Below are positions 11,588 through 53,120 of a stretch of DNA of 64,000 nucleotides, piece after piece (position 1 is the stretch's first letter; every line of letters starts with the position of its first letter). The notes beneath the pieces were generated by a model that was not told the origin of the DNA, did no database searches, and was given only the letters and a program-made list of their open reading frames with translations. The position numbers and the translations under genes were made by a program. Origin of the DNA: Haloquadratum walsbyi J07HQW1 (GTDB lineage: Archaea; Halobacteriota; Halobacteria; Halobacteriales; Haloferacaceae); assembly GCA_000415965.1 (NCBI GenBank), contig KE356560.1:392393-456392 (forward strand), written 5' to 3'.

Positions 11588-11715
11588 ACAGCTGTCGGTA
11601 CTGTGATTTCTGTATTCAAAGTTGCAGCGGAACGCGTCACCGGGTGTTCCAGGTGAACTCAGTCTGAGTGTGGGTTCGGAGAGACACAGTGGTCAAATTG
11701 CCACCGACTAATAAT
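11588..11715 (+). repeat. Dispersed intergenic repeat, copy 1
   Basis: About 125 bases that align with 29163-29285 and 52530-52655. Shared landmarks are an ACTGTGATTTCTGTAT block, a GGAACGC-N8-GTGTTCC hairpin (11630-11650), a TGAACTCAG block, TTCGGAGAGACACAGTGG, and a GCCACCGACTAA end. It has no reading frame of note. It lies just after the Mut7-C gene. Confidence 0.75.
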
Positions 11716-11780
11716 ACGATATCAATACTCATCATACTCATAAGGATACTGATACTATACTATCGACCTGAGAGAACCGG

Positions 11781-12731
11781 TCATTCCATACGAGAAGCCC
11801 ACTCCTCACACGGGACCATGTCATCCATCAGCTCATCATGTGCAGCACAGTATGGCTCGATACCAGAGTCGGTTTTGACATACTCAAAGTGTGCACAGTT
11901 CCCGCAATATTGGTCTCCGAGACTTGCATCGACATCCGCTGATTGCCATGTATTCTTCTCATTCTCTGGGTGTGCTCGTGTCGATGAGCTTCGTGGCGTC
12001 GGTGACGGGCGTCTTGATCTTTGTCCTGTCCGTGAGTTCGAATGCGGGTTTGTGTTTGTCTGTGGGGATTTCGAGGGTTCCGATGATGTGTTTGCAGTTG
12101 TCGGGTCAAACGGTGAAGTAATCGATTCAGCCTCGGTCCCTCCATCAGATGTCGGGGTTGTATCTGTCTCGTCATCAGAACGAGTAAATAATCCAAACCC
12201 CCCCGAGGCCGCATTTGGCTGCTCTCCGGTTGATGAACGCTGAGATGACTCAAATGGATCTGTCTTAGCGTCTGCCGAGCGCAGATTTGTCACCCCAATA
12301 AAAAGACATAAAAAAGTGATCAGTGTACCGAATGAAAACACAGCAACAGTAAGCAGTGTTAAATCTGGTTTGCCGGCTCCACAGACGGCACCGGACCATT
12401 GACACGGATATGCATGATCAAATAATAACACGCCCATGAGCGAAATCCCTGTTCCAACAGCAGCAGCAGCCTTCGTCAGTCGTGCGGACGGGAGCATCGT
12501 AAAAATCCCAACTAACACAGCAGGAACACCCACACCTGCAAGTACACCACCGAGTTGCCGCTTTGCTGTCAGCGCCGCTGGGTCGGTCCCATACAGAAGC
12601 TGTGTTGTCGTGACGCCAATTCCAGAGACGACGAGCATCGACCCCATGAGGAACAATGTAAGGCCAAATGTCAGTCGCCGGAGACTCGGACCCCCCTTAC
12701 CGCTGTTGTAGGTCTCCGCGAGACTGGTCAT
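11781..12731 (-). CDS. Haloarchaeal membrane protein with C-terminal Cys cluster (DUF7139-like)
   Basis: A 316-residue protein. Membrane segments lie near residues 20-45, 60-80, 85-105 and 130-155. A long disordered, charged and Ser/Thr-rich stretch follows, and it ends in a small cysteine-rich module, YCGNCAHFEYV...PYCAAHDE...PCEEW (near residues 275-315), which could bind zinc. I recall similar haloarchaeal proteins as DUF7139; the function is unknown. The ATG at 12731 is chosen over the upstream frame because it begins the typical MTSLAETY N-terminus. It is monocistronic and converges on the Mut7-C gene. Confidence 0.7.
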   Translation of the reverse strand: MTSLAETYNSGKGGPSLRRLTFGLTLFLMGSMLVVSGIGVTTTQLLYGTDPAALTAKRQLGGVLAGVGVPAVLVGIFTMLPSARLTKAAAAVGTGISLMGVLLFDHAYPCQWSGAVCGAGKPDLTLLTVAVFSFGTLITFLCLFIGVTNLRSADAKTDPFESSQRSSTGEQPNAASGGFGLFTRSDDETDTTPTSDGGTEAESITSPFDPTTANTSSEPSKSPQTNTNPHSNSRTGQRSRRPSPTPRSSSTRAHPENEKNTWQSADVDASLGDQYCGNCAHFEYVKTDSGIEPYCAAHDELMDDMVPCEEWASRME

Positions 12732-12918
12732 GCTACTGTATTCGGATAACAGACACAAAACCCTATGTCAGACGATCGTCTGACGGTTAACTGTGTTCAT
12801 CTCCGTTATCTCAGATATCGATTTGTCGTCAAATCCACACAGATTCTCTCGATATCACTCACTGTATGAGCCATGATGTGTCGAAGAGATTATTGCATCG
12901 GATAGCAAACCGGCGCGT

Positions 12919-13281
12919 ATGGCAGACGAAGCGGAAGGCGACGGTGATAATGAACCCATCGTCGAGTTGGGAGAGAAAACACCCGTCGCAGGGCAACCGC
13001 TTGCGCGTGTCGCTGCCCGACTGACCTGGCCGCATGAACTCAGTCGGATCATCGATCAAGAGGGTGAGAGTGTGATTCGAACGCCAACAGGTCCACAACA
13101 ACTTGAATTAGTCCTCACAGATGTCGATGAAACGTATATTGATTCACGACAGACATTTGTTTCTACCGTCGAGGATATTATTGGGACCGGTCCTGTTGCG
13201 ACTGAAGCTGATGATGCGAACGATAATGATGATAATAAGGATCAAAACACGAAACACAAACACAACCGATGCAGAGGCTGA
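12919..13281 (+). CDS. Small acidic haloarchaeal protein (DUF5789-like)
   Basis: A 120-residue protein. The core (residues 12-95) has conserved blocks VAGQPLARVAARLTWPHEL, IRTPTGPQQL and DVDETYIDSRQTFVSTVE, which match the haloarchaeal family I recall as DUF5789. The last 30 residues are an Asn/Asp/Lys-rich tail that looks strain-specific. No catalytic motif or membrane segment is seen. The function is unknown, and the gene stands alone between two longer gaps. Confidence 0.75.
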   Translation: MADEAEGDGDNEPIVELGEKTPVAGQPLARVAARLTWPHELSRIIDQEGESVIRTPTGPQQLELVLTDVDETYIDSRQTFVSTVEDIIGTGPVATEADDANDNDDNKDQNTKHKHNRCRG

Positions 13282-13505
13282 GGCGATTTGACGCCGTGAG
13301 CGGAGTGACCTCATAACGATAATCGATAATCGGTAATCGGTGGCTGACCGTCGGAAACAATACTCTCAGTAACTGAGAGGAGACGACATATTGAATTCGC
13401 TGTACTTCCATATGTATCAAAAAATCATATTATGATGTGTATCACTTGTACGCGAACCGGAGTCAGGATTCCATCAAGTAATGACGAAGAGACGCTGAGC
13501 GGGCT

Positions 13506-14195
13506 GTGTCGGTTCGTACTCACGTTTATGACCTCATTGATCGGATTAGTTGGCTTCAGCGAACACTTTTAATCGGCGCATTCTGTTCGGTGCTATGGAC
13601 AGTGTGGACTGTCCCATCAACAGCATTGTCACAGCGGGTCTTTCGAGACGCGATTGTGTTCATCTGTATTCCACTGACGCTTGCGATTACGCATGGGCGA
13701 AGACTCGGGTATCATATTGATCGCACTGCGATTCGTGATACCGTCGTGCTCGCAGCATTTGTCCTTCCATTCTATCTTGTTGGGTCATCACTCCCTAGCA
13801 TTCGAGCATATTACCCAATGTGGTCGACCACACTCGCACTCGGTGACTTTCTCCCACATGTGATTCAACAACTTATTATTGTCATCGCTGCAGAGACGTA
13901 TTATCGCGGATTACTTTGCGTCGGCATTAGCAACGATATTGGTCCGGTGAGTATCTTCATCAGTCCTATTATCTATGCCTTTCATCACGTTGGAAAGCCA
14001 CCAATTGAATTACTCCTGTCCGGACCAACTGACGTTCTCTTTGGAGCTGTTGATTATCATGCACAGTCACTGCTTCCCTCGATTGTTGCTCACGGGCTTG
14101 GATTGGTATTACTCGATTGGCTTGTGCTACATGAACCGGTATTTTCACCTGAGTTTGTGGTGAGACTGCTTCGGTGGATCCCTGTCCCACTTTGA
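13506..14195 (+). CDS. CPBP-family intramembrane metalloprotease
   Basis: A 229-residue, multi-pass membrane protein of the CPBP (CAAX protease and bacteriocin-processing/Abi) family. The first glutamate motif appears as AAETYYRGLL near residue 128 (the family norm is EExxxR; here one Glu is Ala). The second motif is IYAFHHVG near 157, and a final IVAHGLGLVLLDW supplies the late histidine. It should cleave or bind substrates within the membrane; the substrate is unknown. It starts with GTG at 13506; no in-frame ATG lies before the first helix. The altered first Glu pair makes catalytic competence uncertain. Confidence 0.75.
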   Translation: MSVRTHVYDLIDRISWLQRTLLIGAFCSVLWTVWTVPSTALSQRVFRDAIVFICIPLTLAITHGRRLGYHIDRTAIRDTVVLAAFVLPFYLVGSSLPSIRAYYPMWSTTLALGDFLPHVIQQLIIVIAAETYYRGLLCVGISNDIGPVSIFISPIIYAFHHVGKPPIELLLSGPTDVLFGAVDYHAQSLLPSIVAHGLGLVLLDWLVLHEPVFSPEFVVRLLRWIPVPL

Positions 14196-14710
14196 TATCC
14201 CTCGGACGCTGAAGCACGAAGGGCTCTCCTTGATCTTCTCATCACCGACATAAAGACGCAGAAACCATTGTTAGTGATACCCATATCAGTAGGGGTCGGC
14301 TTGATTCGACGGGCCTGTGCAGGAAATACAATAAAATAACACTGACACCCCGACACAGCATTGAGATATAACGTGTCGTAGATCAGGATAATTAAACCGA
14401 CTCACAGACGTGATGATCACATATGACCTCTCACATCACACGAGATTATCGATGAAGCAATGAAAGGAACTCATGAGCGTGGACGTTACTCACGCTTACG
14501 TCACTCTGTGCTACCACGAAATCGACATTGAGAATTGAGAATTGAAGATCCAGCACTCAAATAGAGATGATACGATGCATATATTCATTAGACTCATAAA
14601 TCTGAGAAGCCCTCGACGGTATTGAGTTACTCACACATCCATGGTGTGATGATCTCTCATGAGTAATTGCAGTGTTTTCTGTTATTTGTTTCATCGATTC
14701 GTGTACCAGC
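14196..14710. other. Convergent intergenic region
   Basis: About 515 bases between converging genes. A 6-bp inverted repeat AGCGTG/CACGCT with a 9-base loop lies at 14476-14496. Nothing else convincing was seen: no RNA gene and no reading frame with coding character. Confidence 0.45.
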
Positions 14711-15715
14711 TTACACAAGTCGTGTCACCGCCTCACGAATACTGCTGTCATCTTGACGGATATCGCGGCGATAATGCATATATACGGCACCAAGTGGTGG
14801 TTGGATGACATACGCCAGCGCGATTGGAAGCACAGCCTCCGCCGGCGGGAACCCGGGGGCTGCAACGACTGCAACGGCAATCGAGAGATTGCGCATACTT
14901 GTTGCATACACGAGTGACACACCGCGTGCATCGTCTAGAACCGCTTGACCGAGGAATGCCCCGACAGCAAGGATAACAGCATAGAAAATAATGAGCGGAA
15001 TGACCGTACTCATCGAAGCAAGTGGGTCTGCGAGAATACTCTGTGACCGCATTGCCATTGCAATAAACACGATAAGCATCACACCGAGTGAGCTAATCCC
15101 TCCAAAAATTGGCTTGAGACGTTTGAATCCGCTGGTGCCATACTGACGGAGAAGCCCACTGCGAGTAAGCACACCAGCGACCATCGGGACGACAACAATG
15201 AATGCGAGTTGTTGATACAGTGCCGAGGGATCAAACCCAACATTCCCTGGAATCAACGCAGAAAGATACAGCGGAAGGACCCCAACAGCCGCAAGGAGGT
15301 TTACTGACATCGCTACCAACGCTGCCTCAAGATCCCCATCAGCGAGTCCTGTCCATGCGGCTGTCATACCGGATGTTGGAATAAGCGCAATAAAGTATAG
15401 CCCAATTGTATATTCGATCTGTCCGGCGAAGAAAAGACGCGAAAGACCCACTGCAAGTATCGGAGCGATGCCAAAGTTTATCAGAAGACTCACAGCAATC
15501 ACCGTTGCATGATGACGTATATTCACAATCTCACGAAGGTCAATATTGATCATCATTGGGTATATCATGACAAACAATACCGGAATAACAGCGGCTCGCA
15601 ACACTGATTTTGTCTCAGTGCCGGCTATCTGCCCGAATGCGAGCCCAATGAACAATGACCCGAGCACAACATAGATTAAATTATCCTTCATCGCAGTGAG
15701 TAATTGCCGAATCAT
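14711..15715 (-). CDS. Bile acid:sodium symporter / ACR3-like transporter
   Basis: A 334-residue membrane protein with about ten hydrophobic segments, of the BASS superfamily. The block ALIPTSGMTAAWTGLADGDL near residues 110-130 resembles the ACR3 arsenite efflux signature, but the cysteine important in ACR3 is absent, so arsenite transport should not be assumed. A second discontinuous-helix region is MRNLSIAVAVV near 270. The start ATG at 15715 gives a normal-length protein. It is a single gene with no arsenate reductase or ArsR neighbour, which also argues against an ars operon. Confidence 0.75.
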   Translation of the reverse strand: MIRQLLTAMKDNLIYVVLGSLFIGLAFGQIAGTETKSVLRAAVIPVLFVMIYPMMINIDLREIVNIRHHATVIAVSLLINFGIAPILAVGLSRLFFAGQIEYTIGLYFIALIPTSGMTAAWTGLADGDLEAALVAMSVNLLAAVGVLPLYLSALIPGNVGFDPSALYQQLAFIVVVPMVAGVLTRSGLLRQYGTSGFKRLKPIFGGISSLGVMLIVFIAMAMRSQSILADPLASMSTVIPLIIFYAVILAVGAFLGQAVLDDARGVSLVYATSMRNLSIAVAVVAAPGFPPAEAVLPIALAYVIQPPLGAVYMHYRRDIRQDDSSIREAVTRLV

Positions 15716-16277
15716 GCGAACTCACCGTCGGTGCTCGCTCGGAAAGCCGATATTGGGTTATTCTCGCTGCGATGTCGATAACGCCGGCATATTGTATCAC
15801 TGAGAGCGAATTCAATGCCCGATTGTAAACGCCGATATAGACTGCGGGTGTAATCTGAATCCATTCTATGTATAGTATTGTACTGGACGTTCAAAACTAT
15901 TGAGATACTCACCGCTAATCGGAAGCAGAGAGTTTATTTTTCTGCTTGCTGCGGGTAAGGATTGAGAGTGTTACAGAGACTTGAATCGGGACGGATAGTT
16001 CCTTGCTCTTGGTCAGAATTTCTACTCGCTTTGGACAGTTTCGCTTTACTCGCTTGCTCCGTTCAGCGTATCTTTATTGGCAGAAACCGAAAAGAAAAGT
16101 CATAGACGGAGACATTTTTATTATTGGTTATCTCAGAGTATCACACTCACCCGCAGCATCGACTGTCTCTGTGATTTATGAATCAATTGTATCTAAACCG
16201 TTGATACGCAGACGTTCTGATTCGTGGGGTGACACTGAATGTGAGCCCGCTTCAATATAACTACGGTGTGAATCAAC
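15716..16277. other. Intergenic region without clear genes
   Basis: About 560 bases between two leftward genes. A rightward open stretch at 16003-16260 encodes 85 residues of basic, Arg/Phe-rich sequence that I cannot assign. It may be decayed transposase sequence or chance. The region presumably contains the promoter of the BASS gene near 15720-15760. Confidence 0.4.
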
Positions 16278-17547
16278 TTAACTAAATTTATCAAAAGTTG
16301 CTTGCCGTCCGGCAGCAATCGTTGAAGCGCGATGCAAGCGTGCTGATGATACCGGAAGATGCTCACAAACGCCATCGATCGCCTCATGCATTGTTTCTGC
16401 GAGTGCCGGTGTGTCATCAAACGTGTCCCGGACCGTTTCACGAACCTGCCAGACGCCAACTGGTGCCCAATAATCTGCTGAGATGTGTCGCAGAATAAGC
16501 GCCTTTGCTTGGCGACCTCGCTGAGCGAGATGCTCAAGCACACCAAGACGAGCGGCATGATATGCGCCTGCAGTCTCAGAGACATACTGCGTTCGTCCAT
16601 CCCGACCTTCCCAATCAGTCGTTATTGCAGTGCCCCCGTCTTGTTTGGGATTCCAAATACTACCGGGGGCTTTCATTTCAACGAGTTCATACTCCCACTT
16701 TCCAGGCGCAAGAATAACCCAGAATGCATTGCCAAGGAATGACTCACGATGGATTTCGACACTGTCGATAGCTCGATTCGTTCGGATTCGACCGCGCAGG
16801 TAGCGTCCGACGATATCATCAACAGCAGTGATTGACCACCGCGTCGGGACAAGTCGACGCTGATCAGCTCGCCCGAGCGCTCCCGCTGAGAGGATGGTAT
16901 TAATATCATAAATATCGAAATCTCGGCGGTAAAGATAGGTAATTGCCCCCTCTGCGTTCCAATCATCATCTGATAATGTCTTTTCAACCGCCCGCGGAAC
17001 ATGTGGATTTTCAGCAAGAGCCGCAGATTCTGCTCGCGCTCGCGGTCCAACTGGTGTTGAAACGTCTGCTGGATTCACATCAAAGTCAATATCTGGACGA
17101 TCAACCAGCCCGATTTCGACATTGACGGGATGGTCAGCGATTGCAATCTCACGTTGAGTCCCGAGAAATCCGTCTCCGTCCCATGTATCTGAGACGTTTG
17201 TGACTGGACGGGTTGTTGTTGAATTCAGCAATGAGGCTCGTCGTTCAAACACATCTGCGATTGAGATATTCTCGGCGTACCATGCTCCAGATGTAATAAA
17301 CTGACTCACATCAGTCTCGTGACCAACTGGCGAAAGAACACCTGTTGAGACATGTGGATAATTTGATGTCCCAACAAAAATAGAGGGCGATACCCCACCA
17401 TACAGCGAGTCTCCCTGCACGGTCGACTCAAATCGATTCTTGGAAATCATCGAGATATTCAACGATATCATATGACCGATCTTTCGCGAGTCGACGTCGC
17501 TCTGCTCGCTTATTCTGCTCAATATCCACATACTCGTCCAGTCGCAT
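16278..17547 (-). pseudogene. nreA: Nre-family DNA repair protein, frameshifted near N-terminus
   Basis: Archaeal Nre repair proteins act with UvrABC and bind PCNA. Here the true start is the ATG at 17547 (MRLDEYVDIEQNKRAERRRL), but that frame stops after about 39 codons. The rest, from KNRFESTVQGDSLYGG onward, is read one base out of phase and is intact to 16278. An extra T in the run complementary to 17430-17432 explains the shift (expected QESIESTVQGD). The C-terminus QATFDKFS fits a PCNA-interacting PIP box (Q-xx-F-xx-F). The downstream frame could start at ATG 17450, losing about 33 residues. It is therefore a recent pseudogene, a sequencing error, or a shortened working protein. An unfixed longer frame to 17714 also exists but has no Nre similarity. 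Confidence 0.8.
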
Positions 17548-17729
17548 CGGTACTCACGGAAAATTGGATAGCAATCATTATCAACGGTCCGGCTACCGCC
17601 TTCGAGTATGCGAGTGCGAGTGCGTGAATGTGTGAGTGACATCAACCGCAACTTCTCAGTGTATCGCGAGACTGCTCTATCGGGGGGAAGATATCGAATA
17701 AAAATAGTCGTCAAACGACGGGAACGGGA

Positions 17730-18719
17730 TCAGGTTGGAATGCCCATCGCTTCGATCTGCTCTTGATATCGATTGCGAATCGTCACCTCAGTCACCTGAG
17801 CAACGTCAGCAACCTCTCGTTGTGTCTTTTTCTCATTACAGAGTAGCGAAGCCGCATAAATAGCTGCTGCGGCGTATCCCGTCGGTGACTTGCCCGAGAG
17901 AAGACCCTGTTCGGCTGTTGTCTCGATGATTTCATCTGCTTTTGATTGGACTTCCTTTGAGAGGTCAAGCTCTGAGCAGAACCGAGGAACATATTTTTTC
18001 GGGTCAACTGGTTTCATCTCTAATCCAAGTTCTTGAGAAATGTAACGATACGTCCGTCCAATTTCCTTGCGTTCGACACGCGATACCTCTGAGATCTCCT
18101 CAAGTGACCGAGGAATCCCTTCTTTTCGACAAGCAGCGTACAACGCAGAGGTGGAAACACCCTCGATTGATCGTCCCCGGATCAAATCTTCACTAAGCGC
18201 TCGTCGATAAATGACAGATGCAACCTCACGAACTGACCGCGGAACACCAAGTGCAGATGCCATTCGATCGACCTCCGAAAGTGCGAACTGAAGATTACGC
18301 TCACCGGCATCTTTTGTCCGAATGCGCTCTTGCCACTTGCGTAATCGATGCATCTGTGAGCGCTTTTCAGATGAGAGCGACCGACCATATGCGTCTTTAT
18401 CTTTCCAATCGATTGTCGTTGTCAGCCCCTTATCATGCATCGTTTTTGTCGTTGGTGCACCGACGCGGGACTTTGATTGCCGCTCAGAGTGGTTAAACGC
18501 CCGCCACTCAGGACCCCGATCGATCTGTTCTTCTTCAACGACGATACCCGTTGGCTCGTGTATGATCTCCCCATCCCCTGTACGGACGAGGTCTTTGTCG
18601 TCGACATTGTCAAGATCAATGTCGTCAACTGCTTCGTCCGTATCAGTATCCTCCTCCCGTTCGCCCTGCCATCGCGTTCGTTCACTATCTCGTTCCCGCT
18701 GGCGGGTGGACCGTGTCAT
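17730..18719 (-). CDS. tfb: Transcription initiation factor TFB, zinc ribbon without cysteines
   Basis: A 329-residue TFIIB homologue. The B-reader/linker block [20 protein letters not shown] (near residues 65-85) is intact, and two cyclin folds follow (near 135-225 and 235-325, ending in helix-turn-helix [20 protein letters not shown]). The N-terminal region that should hold a CxxC...CxxC zinc ribbon reads [20 protein letters not shown]: the fold pattern is kept, but all four cysteines are missing. TFB recruits RNA polymerase through this ribbon, so the factor may bind it differently or act as a specialised or inhibitory TFB. Haloarchaea encode several TFBs. A TTTAAG TATA-like box lies about 30 bases upstream of the start, fitting a leaderless transcript. 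Confidence 0.92.
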
Positions 18720-18911
18720 CGCATTTTTATATTCGCTATCTTGAGTTACTTAAATCTTGGCTAAATGGTCGTATATACATATTCTGTCTCCTTACATGAA
18801 ATAATCATGTAATTTATATTGCGTACAAGCGCTTGCGTGCTCAATTAAACATTATTAATCTTTCGAATGCTCACAGCTGTGTGATGGTTATGAGCACATT
18901 GGACCGAACGG

Positions 18912-18940
18912 TTCTTTTTTACGGTCGACCTACAGTTGCT
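18912..18940 (+). promoter_or_regulatory. Leaderless promoter of rnhA
   Basis: A TTTTTTA TATA-like stretch at about 18913-18920 lies roughly 25 bases before the ATG at 18941. This is the spacing expected for a leaderless haloarchaeal transcript, and it favours 18941 over the upstream in-frame starts at 18893 and 18833. Confidence 0.45.
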
Positions 18941-19537
18941 ATGCCGAGTGTGGACTGTGACCCAGATGAAGCCCGTGAGCGACTGCTCGAAGCCGGAATT
19001 ACGGTCACAGCTGGGAATACTGAGTATGAGCGCTGGCGCGCTGAACATGGCGCAGCAACAGCTGTTGCATACGATGAAACAGTTGTCGTCCAGGGGTCGC
19101 GTCCTGATGACTTGCTCGGACTGCTTCAGGCTGACACCGGCGGTCGAGCACATGTTTACTTTGATGGGGCCTGTCGAGGGAACCCAGGACCGGCAGCAAT
19201 TGGGTGGGTTCTTGTGAGCAATGATGGGATTATCGCTGACGGTGGTGAGACGATTGGCACCACAACTAACAATCAAGCGGAGTATGCTGCACTGGAACGT
19301 GCAGTCGAAATGGCTCGCACGTACGGATTCAACGAAATTGACATTCGCGGGGATTCACAGTTAATCATTCGACAGGTAACTGGCGAATATGACACAAATG
19401 AGCCAACGCTGCGCGAGTGTCGTGTTCGTGTTCGTGAGTTGCTGCAGACGTTCGATCGCTGGAGCATCGAACACGTTCCCCGGGATGTGAACAGTCGTGC
19501 TGACAAACTTGCAAATGAGGCGTTTGACAATGAATAA
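18941..19537 (+). CDS. rnhA: Ribonuclease HI
   Basis: A 198-residue RNase HI that cuts RNA in RNA-DNA hybrids. The N-terminal 65 residues form a haloarchaeal extension (CDPDEARERLLEAGITV, NTEYERWRAEHG). The catalytic domain has YFDGACRGNPGPAAIGW with the first Asp, NNQAEYAALE with the Glu, RGDSQLII with the second Asp and NSRADKLANEA with the last Asp, so the active site is complete. The ATG at 18941 is chosen because it matches the family N-terminus and sits 25 bases after a TATA box. The end overlaps the next gene by 8 bases. Confidence 0.93.
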   Translation: MPSVDCDPDEARERLLEAGITVTAGNTEYERWRAEHGAATAVAYDETVVVQGSRPDDLLGLLQADTGGRAHVYFDGACRGNPGPAAIGWVLVSNDGIIADGGETIGTTTNNQAEYAALERAVEMARTYGFNEIDIRGDSQLIIRQVTGEYDTNEPTLRECRVRVRELLQTFDRWSIEHVPRDVNSRADKLANEAFDNE

Positions 19538-20159
19538 CCGCGAACACGGAAACGGAAACGGAAACGACCACGAGCACAGAAAAAAAGATAATTTAGCCAA
19601 TACAGATGAAATCGGGAGTGAGACAGAAAGTACATCACTTCCACAGCCCGTCATTGATGAGGCAGAACGCCTCACACGTCTTTGTATCAATGCAACAGTC
19701 GATGCCGAGGCGACTGCGTACCACGATGAGCGACAGTCACTCCTTGATGAGTATGGGTATGCCGCACGAGTCCGCGATGCAGACGACACACTCGTGTTGT
19801 ACCCACAGTCATGGCTTGTAGATGGTATTGCACAGGTTGATCAGATTGATGACACCGACCAGGCAATCGAGATATCACTGTCAGGACCAGCGACTGGGGC
19901 AGACTGGGAGGATGTAGAAACGACCAATCAAGCAATTATTGATACGGTTCGAGAAGAACACGGAAGGATACATGCAAAGAATATCAGAGCATTTGCTGAT
20001 TTTATGGGAAATCACTATCTCAAGCCTGTTACTGATGCAACTCGGGATGAGCGCCGAGAGTTTCTCGATGATTACTACACACGGAATGCATGGCCCTCCG
20101 AAGAAGAAGCAGCAGTCGTTTCTGAAAGTATTCGATTGCTCGAAACAATTGAGCGGTAG
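19530..20159 (+). CDS. Conserved haloarchaeal protein coupled to rnhA (DUF7108-like)
   Basis: A 209-residue soluble protein. The first 35 residues are a disordered Asn/His/Asp stretch. The conserved part begins near VIDEAERLTRLCINATVD and includes YGYAARVRDADDTLVLYP, NIRAFADFMGNHYLKP and TRNAWPSEEE. I recall this as the rnhA-linked haloarchaeal family DUF7108; no enzymatic motif is known to me. The ATG at 19530 lies inside the end of rnhA (ATGAATAA), so translation is probably coupled and a role with RNase HI in hybrid removal or repair is a reasonable guess. Confidence 0.75.
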   Translation: MNNREHGNGNGNDHEHRKKDNLANTDEIGSETESTSLPQPVIDEAERLTRLCINATVDAEATAYHDERQSLLDEYGYAARVRDADDTLVLYPQSWLVDGIAQVDQIDDTDQAIEISLSGPATGADWEDVETTNQAIIDTVREEHGRIHAKNIRAFADFMGNHYLKPVTDATRDERREFLDDYYTRNAWPSEEEAAVVSESIRLLETIER

Positions 20160-20211
20160 GTGCCCGAAGCCTACCACGGACTATCTTTAGCTTGCGCCCT
20201 GTCGGATGAAC

Positions 20212-20571: not shown

Positions 20572-20577
20572 ACAAGG

Positions 20578-28847: not shown

Positions 28848-29353
28848 GTTCTCACGCCGGACCGTCTGAGCATTCGAGCGTTCGAGCGTATGAGCGTATG
28901 AAACCAGCTATGAGAGTAATCCATCGAACTGCGCACTCGACACGACACGGTTTGAACATGCTCACGAAATGGAACTGATGATTTTGACTACACACGAGTG
29001 ACAGCTATATTTCCAGAAGAGACCTGACAAACATACATCAATATTTGGAATCGACAACAGAATTGCTCGTCTCAGAAATTTCATCAGTAAGAGTAAGTCT
29101 ATGATTTCTACCATAGACATACGCGAGCGGCATGAGTGTAATGATTATCGTGTAGCAGTCTTATCAGTTGTTGGGACTATGATTTCTGTATCCGAAGCGG
29201 AACGCATATTCAGGTGTTCCAGATGAACTGAGGCTGCGTGTGGATTCGGAGAGAAACAGTGGCCATATTAGTAACGACTGTTCTCACAGGAGTTCAATCG
29301 ACACGCCTCAGTATCCAGAGGACTTGTACGAGTAGCCTGTAGATAAATAATCG
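28848..29353. other. Intergenic region carrying repeat copy 2
   Basis: About 500 bases between two rightward genes. The left part is plain AT-rich sequence with a GAGCGTTCGAGCGTATGAGCGTATGA-like short repeat near 28872-28898. The right part holds copy 2 of the dispersed repeat and then the promoter of the DUF457 gene. Confidence 0.5.
29163..29285 (+). repeat. Dispersed intergenic repeat, copy 2
   Basis: Aligns with the copies at 11588 and 52530. It has the ACTATGATTTCTGTAT block, GGAACGC-N8-GTGTTCC (29199-29220), a TGAACTGAG block, ATTCGGAGAGAAACAGTGG and a final AACGACTG. The stem keeps pairing through a G-U wobble where copy 3 has G-C. Confidence 0.75.
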
Positions 29354-44352: not shown

Positions 44353-44472
44353 ATTCTCTCGTTAGCAAACTCAGGGCTTAATCGCTTCGGAGATAGTCTA
44401 ACCCACATCGACGCAGAGCGAACCAAACGGGTTTTAACCGATGATGGCAAATCTCAGGTAAGGTAGATATTT

Positions 44473-44754: not shown

Positions 44755-44756
44755 TT

Positions 44757-44984: not shown

Positions 44985-45076
44985 TTTTCTTCTAAGAATA
45001 TACCCTCTCATATTGGGGCATACACAGAGAGACGCGAAGACAAATACAAATAAACGCGTAGACCTAACAGATATAT

Positions 45077-45877
45077 ATGAAATATACTGGATGGCCTGAG
45101 CCAGGAGAACCCGTTGTTGGAGAAGTCGACGAAATTGCGGATTTTGGTGTGTTTGTTGATCTTGAGGAGTATGCAGACAAACGTGGACTTTGTCATATCA
45201 GCGAGGTCGCAAGTGGATGGATTAAGAATGTTCGCGACCACGTACGCGAGGGGCAGACAGTCGTTGCAAAGGTGCTTGATGTTGATGAGAGTGCACAGCA
45301 AATTGATCTCTCGATAAAAGACGTAAACGAACACCAACGAAAGGAAACAATCCAGGAGTGGAAAAACGAGCAAAAAGCCGACAACTGGATGGAAATTGCA
45401 TTTGGTGAAGACATTGATGATGAACGTTACACGGCTGTTGCAAATGCACTACTTGCCGAGTTTGAAAGCTTATACACGAGCTTCGAGCAAGCGGCGATCC
45501 ACGGCACTGAAGCATTAGACACCGTCGATCTTGACGATGAAGAGATTGCTGCGATTGTCGAGACTGCACGTCGAAATGTCTCCGTTCCATACGTGACGGT
45601 GACCGGCTACGTTGATATTGAGTGTCCGGTCGGCAATGGCGTTGATGAGGTACAATCAGCACTCCAGGCTGCAGAGGGTGATTCACAAACCGTCGGTGAT
45701 GAGATTGACCTCGATGTTACCTACGTTGGTGCGCCAGAATACCGAATCCGCGTTGAAGCTCCGGATTATAAAACAGCGGAGGGTGCACTTGAGGCGGCTG
45801 CTGATCGTGCACAAACCGCACTCACCGATGGTGGAACCGCAGAGTATCACCGTGATCGACGCTCTGATGAGGAATAA
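45077..45877 (+). CDS. eif2a: Translation initiation factor aIF2 subunit alpha
   Basis: A 266-residue subunit of the factor that carries initiator tRNA to the ribosome. The N-terminal S1/OB domain ([19 protein letters not shown] through [15 protein letters not shown], residues 5-85) is followed by a helical domain and a C-terminal alpha-beta domain ([17 protein letters not shown] near 230). The serine that eukaryotes phosphorylate lies in the S1 domain, but the SELS motif is not present. The factor acts with the initiator tRNA, also encoded in this window. It is part of the conserved ribosomal cluster. Confidence 0.95.
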
Positions 45878-46020
45878 CAGATACCGGTGACATGTGTCCG
45901 AGTAACCAATTCACATGACCGTGGGTATCCTTTCGGATTGCACCGGACCGTCCCATCTCATGCAATCGCGAATAACAGATACACTGCAGGTCTTACAATA
46001 CCGAAAAGAGCAGATAAGTT

Positions 46021-46203
46021 ATGAAATCTGATATTAAAATCTGTGTGCGTTGGCAGGAGAATCACGAACAACCGGTATATACACTTGCTGATACCTGCCC
46101 AAAATGTCATGCAGAAACGGAAAATACTGCGCCAGCGCCGTTCGATCCGACAGACACCTATGGTGAGTACCGACGCGCTCTTAAACAGCGCGTCCGCGAG
46201 TGA
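46021..46203 (+). CDS. nop10: H/ACA RNP subunit Nop10
   Basis: A 60-residue archaeal Nop10, a structural subunit of the RNP that makes pseudouridine in rRNA. It has the short N-terminal zinc site region (TCPKCHAETENTAPAPFDP) and the tail DTYGEYRRALKQRVRE typical of the family. Only two cysteines of the usual four are evident in the zinc site (CxxC); others are replaced, as happens in haloarchaeal members. It lies in the usual place between aIF2-alpha and PAC2, 4 bases before the latter. Confidence 0.92.
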   Translation: MKSDIKICVRWQENHEQPVYTLADTCPKCHAETENTAPAPFDPTDTYGEYRRALKQRVRE

Positions 46204-46207
46204 GGAC

Positions 46208-46966
46208 ATGGAGGATATTGAGATTGAGACGGTCGGAGAGGCAATGCTTCGCGACCCAGTGCTTGTTGAGGGCTTACCAGGCGTGGGTCATGTCGGGAAG
46301 CTTGCTGTTGAGCATCTGATTGAAGAATTTGACTCAGAGGAACTCACCCGAGTGTATGCTGATGAATTTCCGCCGCAGGTGACCGTTGATGATGATGGCG
46401 TCACAGAATTGGCTCACGCATCATTTCATGCTGTCTCTGCTGATGGACAGGATCTTCTTGTCTTGACGGGGGATCACCAAGCGCAGTCACATGCTGGTCA
46501 CTATCATCTTACTGATACTTTCTTGGACATTGCGGAGGACATGGGCGTTCAGTCGGTGTATGCACTTGGAGGTGTTCCGACAGGTGAACTCGTTGAAGAA
46601 CCGGATGTGCTCGGAGCAGTCGCTACTGATAATGGGATTGACCCACTGACCGATGCTGGTGTCGAATTTCGCGAGGGTGAACCAGCAGGTGGCATCGTCG
46701 GCGTCAGTGGCCTGTTGCTCGGTTTGGGTGACCGACGTGGTCTTTCAGCAGCATGTCTGATGGGTGAAACAAGCGGATACTTAGTTGACCCGACAAGTGC
46801 ACAAGCTGTCTTAGAAGTGCTCGAAACGGTCGTTGGGTTTGAGGTTGGATATGAATCCCTCGAAGAGCGTGCGGAAGAGATGAAGGAGGTTGTCGAAAAA
46901 ATCCAACAGATGCAGGGACAACAACAAGGGATGCCGACTGACGATGATCTTCGCTATATCGGATGA
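46208..46966 (+). CDS. Proteasome assembly chaperone-like PAC2-family protein
   Basis: A 252-residue PAC2-family protein. It starts MEDIEIETVGEAMLRDPVLV and contains EGLPGVGHVGKLAVEHLIEEF, VLTGDHQAQSHAGHYHL, YALGGVPTGEL and GISGLLLG-type sequence (GVSGLLLGLGDRRG). A C-terminal coiled stretch ends QQQGMPTDDDLRYIG. Archaeal PAC2 proteins resemble the PbaB/Pac1-Pac2 chaperones that help assemble the 20S core, but a role here is not proven. ATG 46208 follows the Nop10 stop by 4 bases; the frame extends back to 46043 but overlaps Nop10. Confidence 0.88.
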   Translation: MEDIEIETVGEAMLRDPVLVEGLPGVGHVGKLAVEHLIEEFDSEELTRVYADEFPPQVTVDDDGVTELAHASFHAVSADGQDLLVLTGDHQAQSHAGHYHLTDTFLDIAEDMGVQSVYALGGVPTGELVEEPDVLGAVATDNGIDPLTDAGVEFREGEPAGGIVGVSGLLLGLGDRRGLSAACLMGETSGYLVDPTSAQAVLEVLETVVGFEVGYESLEERAEEMKEVVEKIQQMQGQQQGMPTDDDLRYIG

Positions 46967-47440
46967 CTAACTCCGTTGTCTGGTGATCACATATCTTAAC
47001 AATCAGGTGATTAGTTATGATACGTTTCGGGAGAAGCGGGTCCTGTCGTTTCACGAATTATAGAACACGCGAGGCGCAAATCCACACCCCTCAGACGTTG
47101 GGTCAAGCCCCGAGGTATCCGCCTTGTTCAGCCGATGAAGCCAACACCTCGTGCTACCATTAGTATCAGTCTCACGAATTGACCTTCCAACGATTTAATC
47201 TAGGCTCATCCAGGTATGCATATGATTCCACGTGAACCACACTGGATAATATGGATGGGTATAGCCGCCGAAAATAGCGGGGACATTTGAGCATGAAACG
47301 TGATAGAGTAATCGAAGGGACATTCTGAGCCAATGTTTTGACGCTGGATACAGTACAGTTGGTGCCGGTCACAATACATGATGTGAGAAATCCCCTGCTC
47401 ACTCCCTGCAGTGCTTCACTGGGAGTCCCACGCTGAAGCC
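46967..47440. other. Intergenic region with an inverted element remnant
   Basis: Apart from the remnant at 47080-47160 (listed separately), about 470 bases hold no convincing gene. A short leftward open stretch (47172-47402) has no recognisable similarity. Confidence 0.4.
47080..47160 (-). mobile_element. Inverted remnant of an IS605-type right end
   Basis: On the minus strand the segment reads GGCTTCATCGGCTGAACAAG, GCGGATACCTCGGGGCTTGA, then CCCAACGTCTGAGGGGTGTGG. This resembles the right end after the TnpB pseudogene (GCCCCGAGGCTTGACATCGG) in the opposite orientation. It may be a solitary end or guide-RNA scaffold remnant. Confidence 0.45.
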
Positions 47441-47556
47441 CGTCCGTTTATCTGTACAGGCGGTTTGAGGCGACTGCCTCGGGGCTTTGATGTGACCCTG
47501 AGGGTGAAGCCGACAGCATCATCCTGATTGATATTGTATGATACAGTATAATTCAG

Positions 47557-47676
47557 ATGGAGTGGTACCCGAAAGTGAGACAACGTGGAGTTGTCACGAT
47601 ACCAGAAGAAGTCAGAGAGGGGCTTAATCTCGAAGAAGGCGACCAGTTGAAACTCACCGTCGAAAAACTCGACTAA
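47557..47676 (+). CDS. AbrB/SpoVT-type DNA-binding protein of the IS element
   Basis: A 39-residue protein: MEWYPKVRQRGVVTIPEEVR then EGLNLEEGDQLKLTVEKLD. It is a single swapped-hairpin AbrB domain, as in MazE-type antitoxins and in the small gene that often precedes tnpB in haloarchaeal IS1341 elements. It ends 5 bases before the tnpB ATG. It may regulate tnpB expression; this is inference. It is intact although tnpB is broken. Confidence 0.7.
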   Translation: MEWYPKVRQRGVVTIPEEVREGLNLEEGDQLKLTVEKLD

Positions 47677-47681
47677 CACTG

Positions 47682-48981
47682 ATGAAACACACGCTTCGTT
47701 TTCGTGCGTACCTGCCCGATGACGTGGCGGGCGAAGCGTGGGAACATATCGACATTCTCAGACAGATTCGTAATCACGCTGTCCGAGACTACTACAACGC
47801 AGACTACAACGACAAGCCATCTGACTCCGACCAACATAACAAACTCAAACAAGACCAGTGGTCGCCGTTTGCTGAACCCTCTCGACGAGCCGCACAACAA
47901 GCCATCAGCCAGATTCACGACGATCAAGAGACGCTGAAAGAGCGTCGGGACGAAGGCTCCGATGTTGGGCGGTTGCAATGGCAAGCCCGCGGTGAATGTC
48001 GGTCGGTGTCGGACAATCAGTCCAGTCGCTTCAACGTGGATCACAACACGGGTGACGACCGGTTCGTGCGACTCCGAGTTGAAAGATTGGCTGGTTCGAG
48101 ATTCGAGCTGACCGCAACGTGCCACCAGCAGACGAGATTGATGAGGTTATCCTGAAACAAGAGACAACCGGCGAGTGGTACGTCTCGCTCGTCAGCACTG
48201 TCGAAGACACACCCGAGAAACCGCCACTCAGTGAGACTGACCCCGAAGACTGCGTTGGTGTTGACCTCAGCATCACGAGCTACATCCACACCTCGGAGAA
48301 TCTGTCTGTGGATACGCTTGAGTCGTCCGATGAGTACGACCGCTGTGCACGCGAACAGCGAAAGCTCGACCGGAAAGAACACGCTTCAAGCAGTGGGAGA
48401 ACCAACGCCGAAAGGTCGCCCAAGCGAAACGAACAATCAAGCACAAGCTGCGAGACTACTAACATAAATTGACGACGTGGCTAGTCACAAAGTATGATGT
48501 TGTGGCTGTTGAAGACTTAGATGTGAAGCCGATGTTAGAGGGCAGCCAAAACGCCAAGAACAACCAGTATACTGCGTGGTAACGATTTATCGAGTTGCTA
48601 GAGTACAAGGCTGAGTTGCACGGCACACACGTCGAAACAGTGAAACCGGAAGGAACGACCAAAGAGTGTGCTATGTGTGGCGTCAAAACAGCCAAGTCAC
48701 TCTGGGTGTGTGAACACCCGTGTCCGGCGTGCGACCACTCAGAAGACCGTGACCTCAATGCGGCGAAGAATATTCTCTTTCGTGGGTTGAAGCAGTTAGA
48801 GGTGGGACGCTCTGAATCAACGTCCTCAGAACCGCACGGCGATTCTGATGTGCGAACGAGAGCTTTGCTCTCATTACCGCCTGTGGAGACTGCGATCCCT
48901 ACGTTCACACCTCAGCGAGAGCGTATGGATGCAAAGCGCGTTCACCAGACTCCGTCTGGTGGGCTGTCAGACGCAGTCTGA
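47682..48981 (+). pseudogene. tnpB: Broken TnpB (RNA-guided transposon nuclease)
   Basis: The N-terminal part (47682-48118) is intact (MKHTLRFRAYLPDDVAGEAW). A frameshift near 48118-48121 leads to VGVDLSITSYIHTSENL, the RuvC I region with Asp. A second shift near 48385 leads to FKQWENQRRKVAQAKRTIKH. In-frame stops TAA lie at 48460-48462 and 48580-48582. The C-terminal part still shows VVAVEDLDVKPM (RuvC II Glu), the zinc finger CAMCGVKTAK and CPACDHSEDRDLNAAKNI with the RuvC III Asp. All four lesions prevent a working protein. Confidence 0.85.
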
Positions 48982-49116
48982 CAACGTCGTGGAAGCAGGA
49001 AGCCCCGAGGCTTGACATCGGGGTGAGTTCACAGCTGGCACATAGCGCTATTTAGCTGTGAGGGCAGGAGATTAACGGACAGTATATGTGTTCTGATATC
49101 ATGTAATCGTGTGAGG

Positions 49117-49593
49117 ATGGAGTCAAATCAGCTTCGCGAGGCGTTTATCCGGTCGGATACGTCACCGTCAGGTAAGTGGTGGATTGATATCCCAGTAGGA
49201 CTCTCAATCGGCGACGATGATGAGTATGCAACTGCTGATGCTGTCTGTCTCACTTCACGACCGCAGGAGTTACCCGAGGTGTATCCAGATCACACTGGGA
49301 CAGCATACGTGTTTAATCGTGATGATGAGCGCGTTGGTGTCGACAAGTCCGATATGTTCGATGGACTCCGTCAGCGCGATCATTTTACTGAGGAAACAGT
49401 CGTGCTTGTTGGCTTTGAATCAGGATCATCATCGGTTGGGAGTGTTGGCGAGTTGCTTGCTTGTCGTGAGTTACTCTCCGCGGATTGGGAGTGGACAATC
49501 GATGAAGTACTGCTGGTGAGCGACACGGATAGTGATCACGTGAGCTATGTGTGCGATGAACTGTCGATTCGAGCAATGCGAGTAGCTGAGTGA
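49117..49593 (+). CDS. Haloarchaeal protein of unknown function
   Basis: A 158-residue soluble, acidic protein from ATG 49117 (GTG 49111 is an alternative). Recognisable blocks are GKWWIDIPVGLSIGDDD, DAVCLTSRPQELPEVYP and DGLRQRDHFTEETVVLVGFE, the last like an alpha-beta fold. I do not recognise a catalytic motif. The compact fold without low-complexity stretch suggests a real conserved gene. Its stop and that of the convergent PhzF gene are adjacent (49593 and 49594). Confidence 0.7.
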   Translation: MESNQLREAFIRSDTSPSGKWWIDIPVGLSIGDDDEYATADAVCLTSRPQELPEVYPDHTGTAYVFNRDDERVGVDKSDMFDGLRQRDHFTEETVVLVGFESGSSSVGSVGELLACRELLSADWEWTIDEVLLVSDTDSDHVSYVCDELSIRAMRVAE

Positions 49594-50538
49594 TTATGGC
49601 TCGATAATCTCATCATCCTCAGTGCTCGGGAGTGCAATTGTCCCATCAAGCGTGATGACGGCGTGACCACCAACGCGGACACGACGATTCGTATGTGAGT
49701 TATCTGATTCATGATCTTGTTCTTCGGGCTGGATTAACTGCGTGCGAATATATCCTGGACGGTCACAGAAATGTCCCTGCTCATACCGCACGGTCGAGGG
49801 AAATACATCAAAGGCATCGAATGTATCAAGATATGCTGTACATGCCCCAGCAGCGGTTCCAGTCACAGGATCTTCAGGAATCCCAAGGCTCGGAACGAAC
49901 GCACGAGCATGAAGCGTTGATGCTGACTCAAGCGTGTCGAAACTGAATATATACATTCCTGCAGCATCATACGATGTTACGAGCGTATCAATCGCTGCAA
50001 CATTCGGATCCACATCACCAATATGCTCGAGAAAATTGACTGGGACGATAATAAATGGGAGACCAGTTGAAGCAACAGCGAGTGGAAGGTCATCTCCGAT
50101 ATCACGGAGCGCGGCATCATCAATTCCAACTGCAGCAGCAACATCATCATATGCAAGGTCAATCGAGCTAACTGTCGGCGATTGCTGTCTCATCCAGACA
50201 GTCCCGTCATCGTTGAGTGTCAGTTCAATCACCCCAGTATTTGTCTCAACGGTATGTGTCCCCGGATCAATCTCCCCAGACATATCAAGATATGCGTGCG
50301 CAGCAATTGTTGCGTGACCACAGAGATCCACCTCTGTTGTCGGTGAGAAATATCGAAATCGTCTATCAGCAACCGCTGAGTCGGTGATAAACACAGTCTC
50401 ACTCGCACCGAGTTCGGCCGCAATCGCTCGTTGTTGCTCATCCGTCAATGCCTCAGCATCTGGAATGATCCCAGCAGGATTCCCGGCGAGTGGATCGGTA
50501 CTAAACGCATCGACAAGCAGCGCGCGACATGAATCCAT
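49594..50538 (-). CDS. PhzF-family isomerase/epimerase
   Basis: A 314-residue protein of the PhzF fold. It starts with LLVDAFSTDPLAGNPAGII and has the catalytic-Glu region LGASETVFI, then RYFSPTTEVDLCGHATIAAHAYL, then PVTGTAAGACTAYL near residue 225. The fold is shared with diaminopimelate epimerase, and PhzF enzymes isomerise or epimerise small acids. No phenazine cluster is present, so the substrate is unknown. Length is slightly above the family norm because of an Asp/Glu/Ser insertion near residue 278. ATG 50538 is the start. It is divergent from the phosphoribosyltransferase gene. Confidence 0.88.
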   Translation of the reverse strand: MDSCRALLVDAFSTDPLAGNPAGIIPDAEALTDEQQRAIAAELGASETVFITDSAVADRRFRYFSPTTEVDLCGHATIAAHAYLDMSGEIDPGTHTVETNTGVIELTLNDDGTVWMRQQSPTVSSIDLAYDDVAAAVGIDDAALRDIGDDLPLAVASTGLPFIIVPVNFLEHIGDVDPNVAAIDTLVTSYDAAGMYIFSFDTLESASTLHARAFVPSLGIPEDPVTGTAAGACTAYLDTFDAFDVFPSTVRYEQGHFCDRPGYIRTQLIQPEEQDHESDNSHTNRRVRVGGHAVITLDGTIALPSTEDDEIIEP

Positions 50539-50652
50539 TCTATTTAGTAGTGAAATCGAACGGACAAAAAATTCAGTGTTCGAGACGAATCACTGTCTCG
50601 ATGAGGCTCACAAATCCGTTATCAATATACACGAGACCGTCCACGTGCTGGT

Positions 50653-51420
50653 ATGAGCGACCTGCCAGATCAATTTAATTGCACAATCACAAACTGGGAG
50701 TACATTTATGATCTGTGCCGTGAGGTGAGTACTCAAATCAGGGCTGACACCTTTGATCCTGATGTCGTTGTTGCACTTGCTCGTGGAGGCTGGTTTGCTG
50801 GTCGATGTATCTGTGATTTTGTTGGGCTTGATGATTTGACAAGTCTGAAAATGGAACACTACGTTGGAACAGCACAGACATCAGCTGAGCCACAGATTCG
50901 ATATCCAATGCCCGAAGGGAGTGTTGCGGAAAAAGATGTACTCATTATCGATGACATAGCTGATACTGGTGGGTCGATTGAACGAGCATATGAGTATGTT
51001 ACTGACCGAGACCCTAACAACGTCCGAACAGCAACGTTACAATTGCTTCAGACGAGTGCATTCGAGCCGGATTTTGTCGGCGAGCGACTTGATACATGGG
51101 CGTGGGTTGTATATCCGTGGAACTTTATCGAGGATATGACTGATCTTCTCGCTGGCATCATGCGGAAAGCCGACGCAGAGACATTTACGATTCCGGACCT
51201 TCGAGAGGGGCTCAAAGAGTATCACTCAGTCGAGCGAATCGAAATGGAGATTGCACAACCTGACCGAATGGAAGAAGTGCTTGATGAGATGCACCGTCGT
51301 GGGTACGTTGAACCGGTCGCGACGGATCACACCGGGACCGAAAAACCGATTGAGACGGAAACTGATATATCACAGTCGGCTTGGCGAATCCTTGAGACCG
51401 ATGATGAGGTCGGAGTGTAA
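50653..51420 (+). CDS. Phosphoribosyltransferase (purine PRT-like)
   Basis: A 255-residue type I PRTase. PDVVVALARGGWFAGR is the loop with the conserved GGW, and VLIIDDIADTGGSIERA is the PRPP-binding signature (near residues 97-113). The first 160 residues hold the transferase fold, in the order of Gpt/Hpt enzymes that salvage xanthine or guanine. The C-terminal 90 residues (YHSVERIEMEIAQPDRMEEV) form a helical region of unknown role that could be a regulatory domain. The substrate base cannot be fixed from the sequence. It ends 12 bases before the AEC transporter, suggesting one operon. Confidence 0.85.
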   Translation: MSDLPDQFNCTITNWEYIYDLCREVSTQIRADTFDPDVVVALARGGWFAGRCICDFVGLDDLTSLKMEHYVGTAQTSAEPQIRYPMPEGSVAEKDVLIIDDIADTGGSIERAYEYVTDRDPNNVRTATLQLLQTSAFEPDFVGERLDTWAWVVYPWNFIEDMTDLLAGIMRKADAETFTIPDLREGLKEYHSVERIEMEIAQPDRMEEVLDEMHRRGYVEPVATDHTGTEKPIETETDISQSAWRILETDDEVGV

Positions 51421-51432
51421 CGACTCACTCAC

Positions 51433-52389
51433 GTGGTTTCACTTCTCTCTGTCTTTGCGACAGCCATTTTACCGATTGTTGGCGTTGGCGGTGTCGGATA
51501 TGTGCTTGGGCGATGGCGATCAATTGATACAGCCGCACTGAATACTGTTATCGTCTATGTTCTTGCCCCCGCGCTTGTGTTTTATAGCCTTGCAACAACG
51601 ACGTTAGCGCAATCAACACTGCTTCGGGCAAGCGTTGCAGTCATTATTTATCATCTGCTTGCGATTGGCGTTGCTGCCGGGGTTGGACGCGTATTGAAAC
51701 GGAGTCAGACAGCAGTCGCAGCACTGATGTTAGTGACTGCATTTCCAAACTCTGGGAATTACGGCATTCCAGTCTCAAATTTCGCGTTTGGTTCGACAGG
51801 ACGAGCAACAGCGGTGATATATCTCTCTGTCCAAGGCGTCATCTTGTATACGCTTGGGATATATATCGCATCACGCGGAGGGACGAACAGTCGTCTTGCA
51901 GGGATTAAACGCGTGTTCACCGTTCCACTCGTGTATGCTGTTATTGCTGCGGTTATTGCACGAGTATTACAGATTGTGCCGTCAACAGATACGACTGCAA
52001 TGGCAACGATAAAATTGGTTGGTGATGCGGCAATTCCGCTGATGTTGTTAGTCGTTGGAATTCGACTGGCACGGACAGATATCGGATCAACGTTGTCAGC
52101 CGTTGGACTTGGTGTTGGATTAAAAATGGTCGTTGCCCCACTTATCGGATTAGCTATTGCAGTGATGATTGGCTTTGATGACCCGACTGTGGCGCGGACA
52201 TTCGTGCTTGAATCTGCGATGCCATCAGCGATTACACCAATGATTCTTGTTGCTGAATTTGGCTCCGGTGATGTCGCCGGGGTTCCGATAGCAGAGTTTG
52301 TCTCAGCGGCGGTATTCGTCTCAACAATTATTTCTATACCGGTGTTGACACTTGTTATTGCAATCTTGAAATCTGGTGTCGTTCTTTGA
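51433..52389 (+). CDS. AEC-family (auxin efflux carrier-like) transporter
   Basis: A 318-residue membrane protein with ten predicted helices. The helix-breaking motifs TAFPNSGNYGIPVSNFAFG near residue 100 and ESAMPSAITPMILVAEFG near 260 are typical of the AEC (membrane transport protein) family. Members move organic acids, amino acids or auxin in other organisms; the substrate here is unknown. The start is GTG 51433. It follows the phosphoribosyltransferase by 12 bases, so a purine or nucleobase substrate is a possible but untested guess. Confidence 0.85.
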   Translation: MVSLLSVFATAILPIVGVGGVGYVLGRWRSIDTAALNTVIVYVLAPALVFYSLATTTLAQSTLLRASVAVIIYHLLAIGVAAGVGRVLKRSQTAVAALMLVTAFPNSGNYGIPVSNFAFGSTGRATAVIYLSVQGVILYTLGIYIASRGGTNSRLAGIKRVFTVPLVYAVIAAVIARVLQIVPSTDTTAMATIKLVGDAAIPLMLLVVGIRLARTDIGSTLSAVGLGVGLKMVVAPLIGLAIAVMIGFDDPTVARTFVLESAMPSAITPMILVAEFGSGDVAGVPIAEFVSAAVFVSTIISIPVLTLVIAILKSGVVL

Positions 52390-53120
52390 TAATCGGTGGC
52401 ACTCTGAGTACTATTTTCTTCTACAGCCGCTCAGCAGACGTGAAACGCCAGTCTCTGTGCTTCCCTCAGCTCTGTTCTGTCTCGAATTCAAAAGTTTACA
52501 CCGTCAATGACTGCTACACAGCAGCTTCACAGTTGTTGTGACTGTGCGTTCAGTTATTTATTTGAATGGGAACGGAACGCGCACACAGGCGTTCCAAATA
52601 AAATGGGTGTGGTCTCAGAGAGAAACCTGCTTAAAGTGCCACCGATTGTTACATAATCCAATCTATCAGTACTCTGCTCGTTGAGTTCATATTCGTTGGC
52701 TCACTCGGTACTTTGATCATGTGTCATAATCGAGCGAAATAAATTTGGCTGAAATAGACGGTGGAGGCGGTATTCACACAGATATGCGGGTTCCAGCCGC
52801 AGGTCTCGTATCCTCCGCTAGAGGGACAAACAGGGTGAATCCCGCGGTCACCACTCTCATGATTCTTCAATCCTGTTCATGTGGTTTCGTCAATCCGTCG
52901 AGAGAGTACGTCTTGTGCTGCTTTCCTGTCTTCGTCTTCACATGTCAGCGCCACAATGTGTAAAGCTGAGTATCGTCGTTGCTTCAATCTGATTCGATTC
53001 AAATTTGCGTTGAGCTGATCGAATCATGCTGGTTTCTGAGATTCCATGACAGTCATAGTCTCATTGATATCACTGACTGATACCAATAATGGCTTGCTGT
53101 TAGCGGAGTGAATTGTATAT
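52390..53120. other. Long intergenic region with repeat copy 3
   Basis: About 730 bases. Copy 3 of the dispersed repeat occupies 52530-52655. An open stretch at 52745-52963 (72 codons) has odd Cys/Val-rich composition and no family match. The mtnP promoter must lie near 53080-53115. Confidence 0.5.
52530..52655 (+). repeat. Dispersed intergenic repeat, copy 3
   Basis: Aligns with copies 1 and 2. It has a CACAGT-TGTTGTG-ACTGTG hairpin at 52529-52547, then GGAACGC-N8-GCGTTCC as a perfect 7-bp stem (52574-52595), then TCAGAGAGAAAC and GCCACCGATTGTTAC. The central part is more diverged than in copies 1 and 2. Confidence 0.65.

Follow-up and report, generated by a model that had tools for sequence, protein, structure and literature searches.

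The 64,000-nucleotide stretch of Haloquadratum walsbyi J07HQW1 analysed here (contig KE356560.1, positions 392,393 to 456,392 of the forward strand; hereafter the window) contains three copies of a short dispersed repeat, which is most likely a miniature inverted-repeat transposable element (MITE). All three lie on the plus strand, at 11589..11710 (copy 1, 122 bp), 29165..29280 (copy 2, 116 bp) and 52530..52648 (copy 3, 119 bp, the most diverged). The original prediction, made from the letters of the window, had placed three copies at these sites in one orientation, and both positions and orientation are borne out, with independent support from BLAST with copy 1 alone. It had also put them 5 to 320 bases downstream of gene stops, in agreement with the 5, 317 and 140 bp that separate the starts of copies 1, 2 and 3 from the open reading frame (ORF) stops at 11583, 28847 and 52389. 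The genes preceding the copies are unremarkable, encoding a Mut7-C protein (copy 1), CinA (copy 2) and a membrane transport protein (copy 3).

The family runs from CAGTTGTTGG to CCACCGACTG and has imperfect inverted termini, with CAGTTGTTGGNAMTNTGA on the left and CAGTCGGTGGCAATNTGA (reversed) on the right. Complete copies measure 109-158 bp (n=130), are non-coding and lack a transposase. Near the middle lies a palindrome, GGAACGC .. GTGTTCC in copy 1 (11629..11650) and copy 2 (29199..29220) and GGAACGC .. GCGTTCC in copy 3 (52574..52595), all on the plus strand. This matches the earlier description of a stem that is perfect in copy 3 and has GTGTTCC as its 3' side in the other two. The bases of the palindrome are 77-97% conserved over 150 copies, about the same as the termini, and visual inspection finds it in copies from other genera too. 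A second hairpin described earlier, CACAGT/ACTGTG, is present in copy 3; it is made up of the left terminus and two bases of the flank and is not a feature of the family.

The repeat is present in high copy number. A BLAST search of the J07HQW1 genome (G000) with copy 1 found 44 places at E<=10, 41 of them with E 2e-12 or better (40 of 155 candidates scored). R1, a model based on sequence only, was made from 19 copies (three of 22 copies were left out, as were two of 22 from A2). It matched all 150 of the candidates scored, with 44-119 bits each; the first look had yielded 1616 candidates. The genome therefore holds at least 150 copies, a lower bound, and more copies turned up near known ones. 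The absence of further genomic copies had been named beforehand as a result that would speak against the prediction; such copies do exist. R1 gives copies 1-3 scores of 117.7, 92.2 and 64.4 bits, the next match in the window reaching 10.6 bits; these high scores arise by construction, because the 19 building sequences include those three. A pattern for the terminus, allowing up to three mismatches, occurs at 914 sites, compared with 275 for the reversed pattern. Distribution among relatives is patchy: the repeat was found in 5/17 genomes of the genus and, under stricter filters, in 10/170 of the family. One of these genomes (G021) carries seven copies of 111 bp, five of which score the same.

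Insertion of the repeat is accompanied by duplication of 4 bp of target sequence. Of the 150 copies, 18 that were not full length were dropped, and two of the remaining 132 were removed for near-identical flanks, leaving 130. For a duplication length of 4, the two flanks share their first base in 73% of copies, compared with 30% expected (z 12.2), and their fourth base in 77%, compared with 37% expected (z 10.1); at lengths of 2, 3 and 5-10 bp, z is at most 3.0 in the same 130 copies. Perfect 4/4 duplications flank 51 copies, whereas 2000 shuffles average 7.7 and never exceed 16, and matches at three or more of the four bases flank 91, with 43.2 expected and at most 58 in shuffles. The target reads N-T-A-N, the left side having T at 115/130 and A at 98/130. 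On visual inspection, nine or more of the relatives' loci L051-L078 also show perfect duplication pairs. With the elements removed, 6/129 insertion sites fall within a long open frame, compared with 490/1000 random positions in the same segments (one of the 130 copies had too little flank and was dropped).

For copy 1 an empty site has been found. Its joined flanks align through the junction in two related genomes, G015 and G016 (loci L226 and L227), with scores of 451 and 372 without the element and 337 and 254 with it. Two of the checks put forward in the original prediction, for target-site duplications and for empty sites in related strains, gave positive results, the 4-bp NTAN duplication being statistically clear over the full-length copies and the site of copy 1 being without the element in both relatives. 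The inverted termini, the flanking duplication and the genome-wide copy number had not figured in that prediction. Comparison of ten MITE loci of G015 and G016 with the J07HQW1 genome also revealed shared insertions. L051 and L055 sit in sequence 97% identical to that around J07HQW1 copies 1693854 and 1690293, the right flank of L052 is the same as that of copy 1759813, and L059 corresponds in position to a J07HQW1 copy that is truncated. Insertions of both kinds, older shared ones and younger private ones, are therefore present.

A search for the terminus in six MITE-bearing genomes, and in stretches round unpaired ends, led to a larger element with related ends. This element, in G021 (L079:1996-11598), measures 9603 bp, is flanked on each side by ATAA and encodes an ISH3-like transposase 60 bp in from one terminus. 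The same element also contains a CPBP-like ORF, a beta-lactamase-like ORF (recognised by eye) and an IS605-type OrfB with a Cas12f1-like TNB domain. Intact transposons were found on one contig of Haloferax sulfurifontis (G040), at L217:3334-10625 (7292 bp, GTAA duplication) and L218:2033-8373 (6341 bp, ATAA duplication), and on plasmid pNATPE01 of Natrinema pellirubrum, at L222:2031-8599 (6569 bp, GTAT duplication). When the flanks of the 7292-bp transposon are joined, an open frame runs through the insertion site. J07HQW1 itself has a decayed element of 2670 bp (G000:C1:973787-976456), with ATAA on both sides, whose transposase is broken over several frames. Over most of its length this broken transposase shares about 78-81% identity with an intact one of 618 aa. 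Between MITE copies and the transposon end in J07HQW1, up to 25 of the first 32 bases agree, the maximum in 2000 shuffles being 21.

The best model for the partner transposase is that of the ISH3 family (NCBIfam NF033541), which scores 90.2 and 131.1 bits (E 1.3e-25 and 4.4e-38), under its curated cut-off of 225; the model has 298 positions, whereas the protein has 618 aa. The partner transposases contain a DDE_Tnp_1 domain, and their elements differ from ISH3 in being 6-10 kb long with extra genes. Relatives of the transposase occur in 21/170 genomes of the family, and the enzyme is found in 6/10 MITE-bearing genomes compared with 15/160 others (Fisher p 2.7e-4). In a further genome (G020), ends of the transposon type (34 bp inverted, 88% alike) bound an element of 800 bp (L083:1810-2609), which has CTAA on both sides and encloses an ORF that by eye resembles the PIN/VapC type.

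We therefore interpret the repeat as a high-copy MITE that has spread by insertion at NTAN sites and was most likely mobilised by an ISH3-like transposase, a reading to which we give a probability of roughly 0.86. The earlier suggestion of a small non-autonomous element is upheld by the inverted termini, the 4-bp duplication, the copy number, the empty site of copy 1, the patchy presence and the candidate autonomous partner. The MITE would move through the chromosome by a cut-and-paste type of insertion, each event duplicating 4 bp of its NTAN target. The transposase was most likely supplied in trans by the ISH3-like DDE enzyme of the larger transposons, whose termini match and which likewise duplicate 4 bp at NTAN, and the central palindrome may have been kept because a protein binds there.

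Several observations weigh against this interpretation. The duplications of the window copies themselves are imperfect, matching at 3, 3 and 2 of 4 bases (left and right flanks ACAA and ATAA for copy 1, TTAT and TTCT for copy 2, TTCA and TTAC for copy 3). The empty site of copy 1 is not base-exact, and the spacers of the relatives carry other gaps too. For copy 2 the relatives match on the right flank only (L241, L242), with no MITE copy in those loci. The termini of MITE and transposon are similar, not identical, their consensus agreeing at 18-22/32 positions, and the co-occurrence statistics ignore kinship among genomes. The J07HQW1 genome, which is 89.6% complete, has no intact partner transposase and three decayed places only, and 4/10 MITE-bearing genomes, G015 included, are without a transposase match at E<=1e-10. 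These last two findings would fit a reading in which another transposase moved the MITE and the likeness to the ends of the ISH3-like transposons reflected only convergence or old common descent. We regard this as unlikely, since the likeness at the 5' end extends past the outermost bases and exceeds the shuffled maximum, duplication length and NTAN preference agree between MITE and transposons, and the two are associated across genomes.

Haloquadratum walsbyi is known for MITEs, palindrome-associated transposable elements (PATEs) and small mobile repeats (SMRs), according to the available part of PMC3119063. The elements described there as MITEs HqIRS32-39 and as SMR-A (HqIRS42, 43 and 55) are likewise short and non-coding, with inverted termini and dozens of copies in the same genus. 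As in the present family, HqIRS39 shares its ends with a possibly disrupted transposon, HqIRS12 (PMC3119063, same part). The count of 55 MITEs per genome given in that part compares with at least 150 of one family here, families being compared by description only. Available sections on the Lake Tyrrell H. walsbyi genomes (PMC4330952) do not contain the words MITE or repeat.

Could the repeat be an SMR, an element of about 110 bp with inverted ends and no duplication, aimed at PATE and IS605 elements? Length and copy number are similar and the genus is the same, SMR-A families reaching 54 copies per genome in the accessible portion of PMC3119063. However, SMRs are defined there by an absent target duplication, SMR-A having none, and by ends unlike those of known transposons. 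Here the 4-bp duplication is clear and a transposon with ends matching the MITE has been found, which makes the assignment, drawn from description only, very improbable.

The original prediction had offered a family of non-coding RNAs as the other possibility, with a repeat that would be transcribed and a hairpin held by selection on base pairing. Covariation was examined in a sequence-only alignment of the best 150 of 155 matches (148 distinct), drawn from 100 sources rather than from all loci. The stem sequence is conserved, and 87.5% of the cells in its seven central pairs are standard pairs, a percentage that shuffles share (87.2%; 61/500 reach the observed value). Central-stem cells changed on both sides number 12, against 8.8 +/- 2.6 in shuffles (75/500 reach it), and pairs with two-sided changes number 4, against 4.3 (376/500 reach it). 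Stem pairing changes are thus no commoner than chance, one of the outcomes named in advance as speaking against the prediction. The covariation score is slightly high (0.131 compared with 0.122; 34/500 shuffles reach it), a slight lean to pairing of the kind that related sequences give without structure. The terminal stem likewise shows no clear covariation. Substitution in the stem is symmetric between the strands, which speaks against an RNA. The earlier observation that pairing is kept by a G-U wobble holds for the three window copies and fails as a rule over the 150 copies, where non-standard cells of the central stem include 67 G.U and 89 A.C; an RNA stem should tolerate G.U, not A.C. At the Rfam gathering threshold the sole match in the window is a tRNA, with none at the MITE sites, and target duplications require a DNA insertion mechanism. 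Because covariation is not clear and G.U cells do not outnumber A.C cells, a structured RNA family is not supported and we consider it very improbable.

The larger transposons that are the candidate partners of the MITE carry cargo. At the transposon end opposite the transposase lie three genes, one Csm3-like, one Cmr3-like and, in the middle, one without a match. PADLOC recognised Csm3 in 18/20 homologues (A6, group G7) and Cmr3 in 19/19 (A7, group G5), with weak single-protein scores (E down to 5.5e-5 and 2.1e-8, respectively, for those models that match most widely), and the match of the cargo proteins to the Pfam RAMPs family is under its cut-off. AlphaFold2 models of the two RAMP proteins had mean predicted local distance difference test scores of 51.8 and 44.1, which is too low, and Foldseek found nothing at E<=0.001 with either of these low-confidence models. 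As a hint only, 28/31 weak matches of the Csm3-like model were CRISPR chains (best E 0.66), and the top 13 matches of the Cmr3-like model were all CRISPR proteins, the best being Cas6 (E 0.0048). Sequence searches of the PDB gave no match for the 311-aa protein or A6 and three for A7, Csm4 (E 0.25) among them.

The cassette is widespread and tied to the transposon end. It was found at 34 loci in GTDB genomes, of which 14/34 have part of a transposase no more than 9 kb away (many contigs stop nearby). Four loci without a Cmr3-like match and two that were too short were excluded from the terminus count, and among the remaining 28, which span many haloarchaeal genera, 19 have the terminus with at most two mismatches 96-138 bp past the Cmr3-like match (12 without a mismatch), compared with 1/28 for the reversed pattern; two or three loci had helped define the pattern. 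NTAN stands just outside this cassette-side terminus in 18/19 loci. By terminus pattern, two ends with a 4/4 duplication were recovered at 3/34 cassette loci, including the two Haloferax sulfurifontis elements. At L223 both ends are present, flanked by TTAA and ATAG, while L276 has a 3/4 match and L120 has TTAT and TTCT; a second transposon end was looked for and not found at L220, L221 and L224. Among plasmid records, 21 carry the Csm3-like gene, mostly annotated as hypothetical only, and the transposase lies within about 4 kb of it in 12, eight of which are near-alike Halobacterium plasmids. Extra pieces also occur inside RAMP transposons, namely a TnpB-like piece (OrfB_IS605, Cas12f1-like TNB) on a Halomicrobium urmianum plasmid (L223:5346-6008) and a ParE-like and ribbon-helix-helix pair at L222:3972-4554. 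A RAMP cassette on a 3-kb contig labelled as an Elusimicrobia metagenome-assembled genome (L273) is probably a binning error.

In available excerpts of PMC8730458 and PMC12669027, HRAMP systems are described as diverged homologues of Cas5 and Cas7, nearest to type III, with nucleases and no array. The transposons resemble them in carrying Cas7- and Cas5-type Csm3-like and Cmr3-like genes without a CRISPR array, no array-like direct repeats being present in the three transposons checked. Additional nucleases are part of HRAMP as outlined in those excerpts; no HNH or PD-(D/E)xK nuclease was recognised among the part of the transposon ORFs scanned with Pfam. A transposon with HRAMP or RAMP cargo was not found described in the literature searched, which excludes the defining HRAMP paper (PMC6702361). 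By analogy with CRISPR-associated transposons, an array-less RAMP complex could conceivably be a working part of the ISH3-like transposon, choosing or silencing sites, with the MITE as its satellite and the palindrome as a putative binding or guide site; we think this improbable.

The high-copy MITE family adds a member to a known class, and the parent transposon with RAMP genes is the more surprising part. With at least 150 copies, the MITE is a major source of intergenic sequence in an archaeon that is dominant in salt-saturated water, and any search for non-coding RNAs in these genomes should mask it first. Comparing filled with empty orthologous sites allows insertions to be dated. The MITE has also led to a widespread haloarchaeal transposon with type III-like RAMP genes beside one end and, if the cargo is indeed HRAMP, the function of HRAMP becomes a testable question about a transposon.

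Copy lengths in the J07HQW1 genome peak at 110, 116, 122, 128 and 134 bp, that is, in 6-bp steps, and the element plus 4 bp is therefore often a multiple of 3. In-frame insertion as a design was considered and dropped, as 105-112 bp is the usual length in other genomes and copies avoid genes. Slippage of a hexamer near the 3' arm may be a simpler origin for the steps, which is a guess.

Directly ahead of copy 3, a possible decayed half-copy of the family lies in the opposite orientation (52391..52459, minus strand). The match is weak (R1 10.6 bits, E 0.03, model positions 45-121) and includes a terminus-like site. To the right of copy 3, window positions 52739-52971 share 92% identity with the opposite strand of G000:C1:1365557-1365783; this is a further dispersed repeat or a duplication and has no relation to the MITE.

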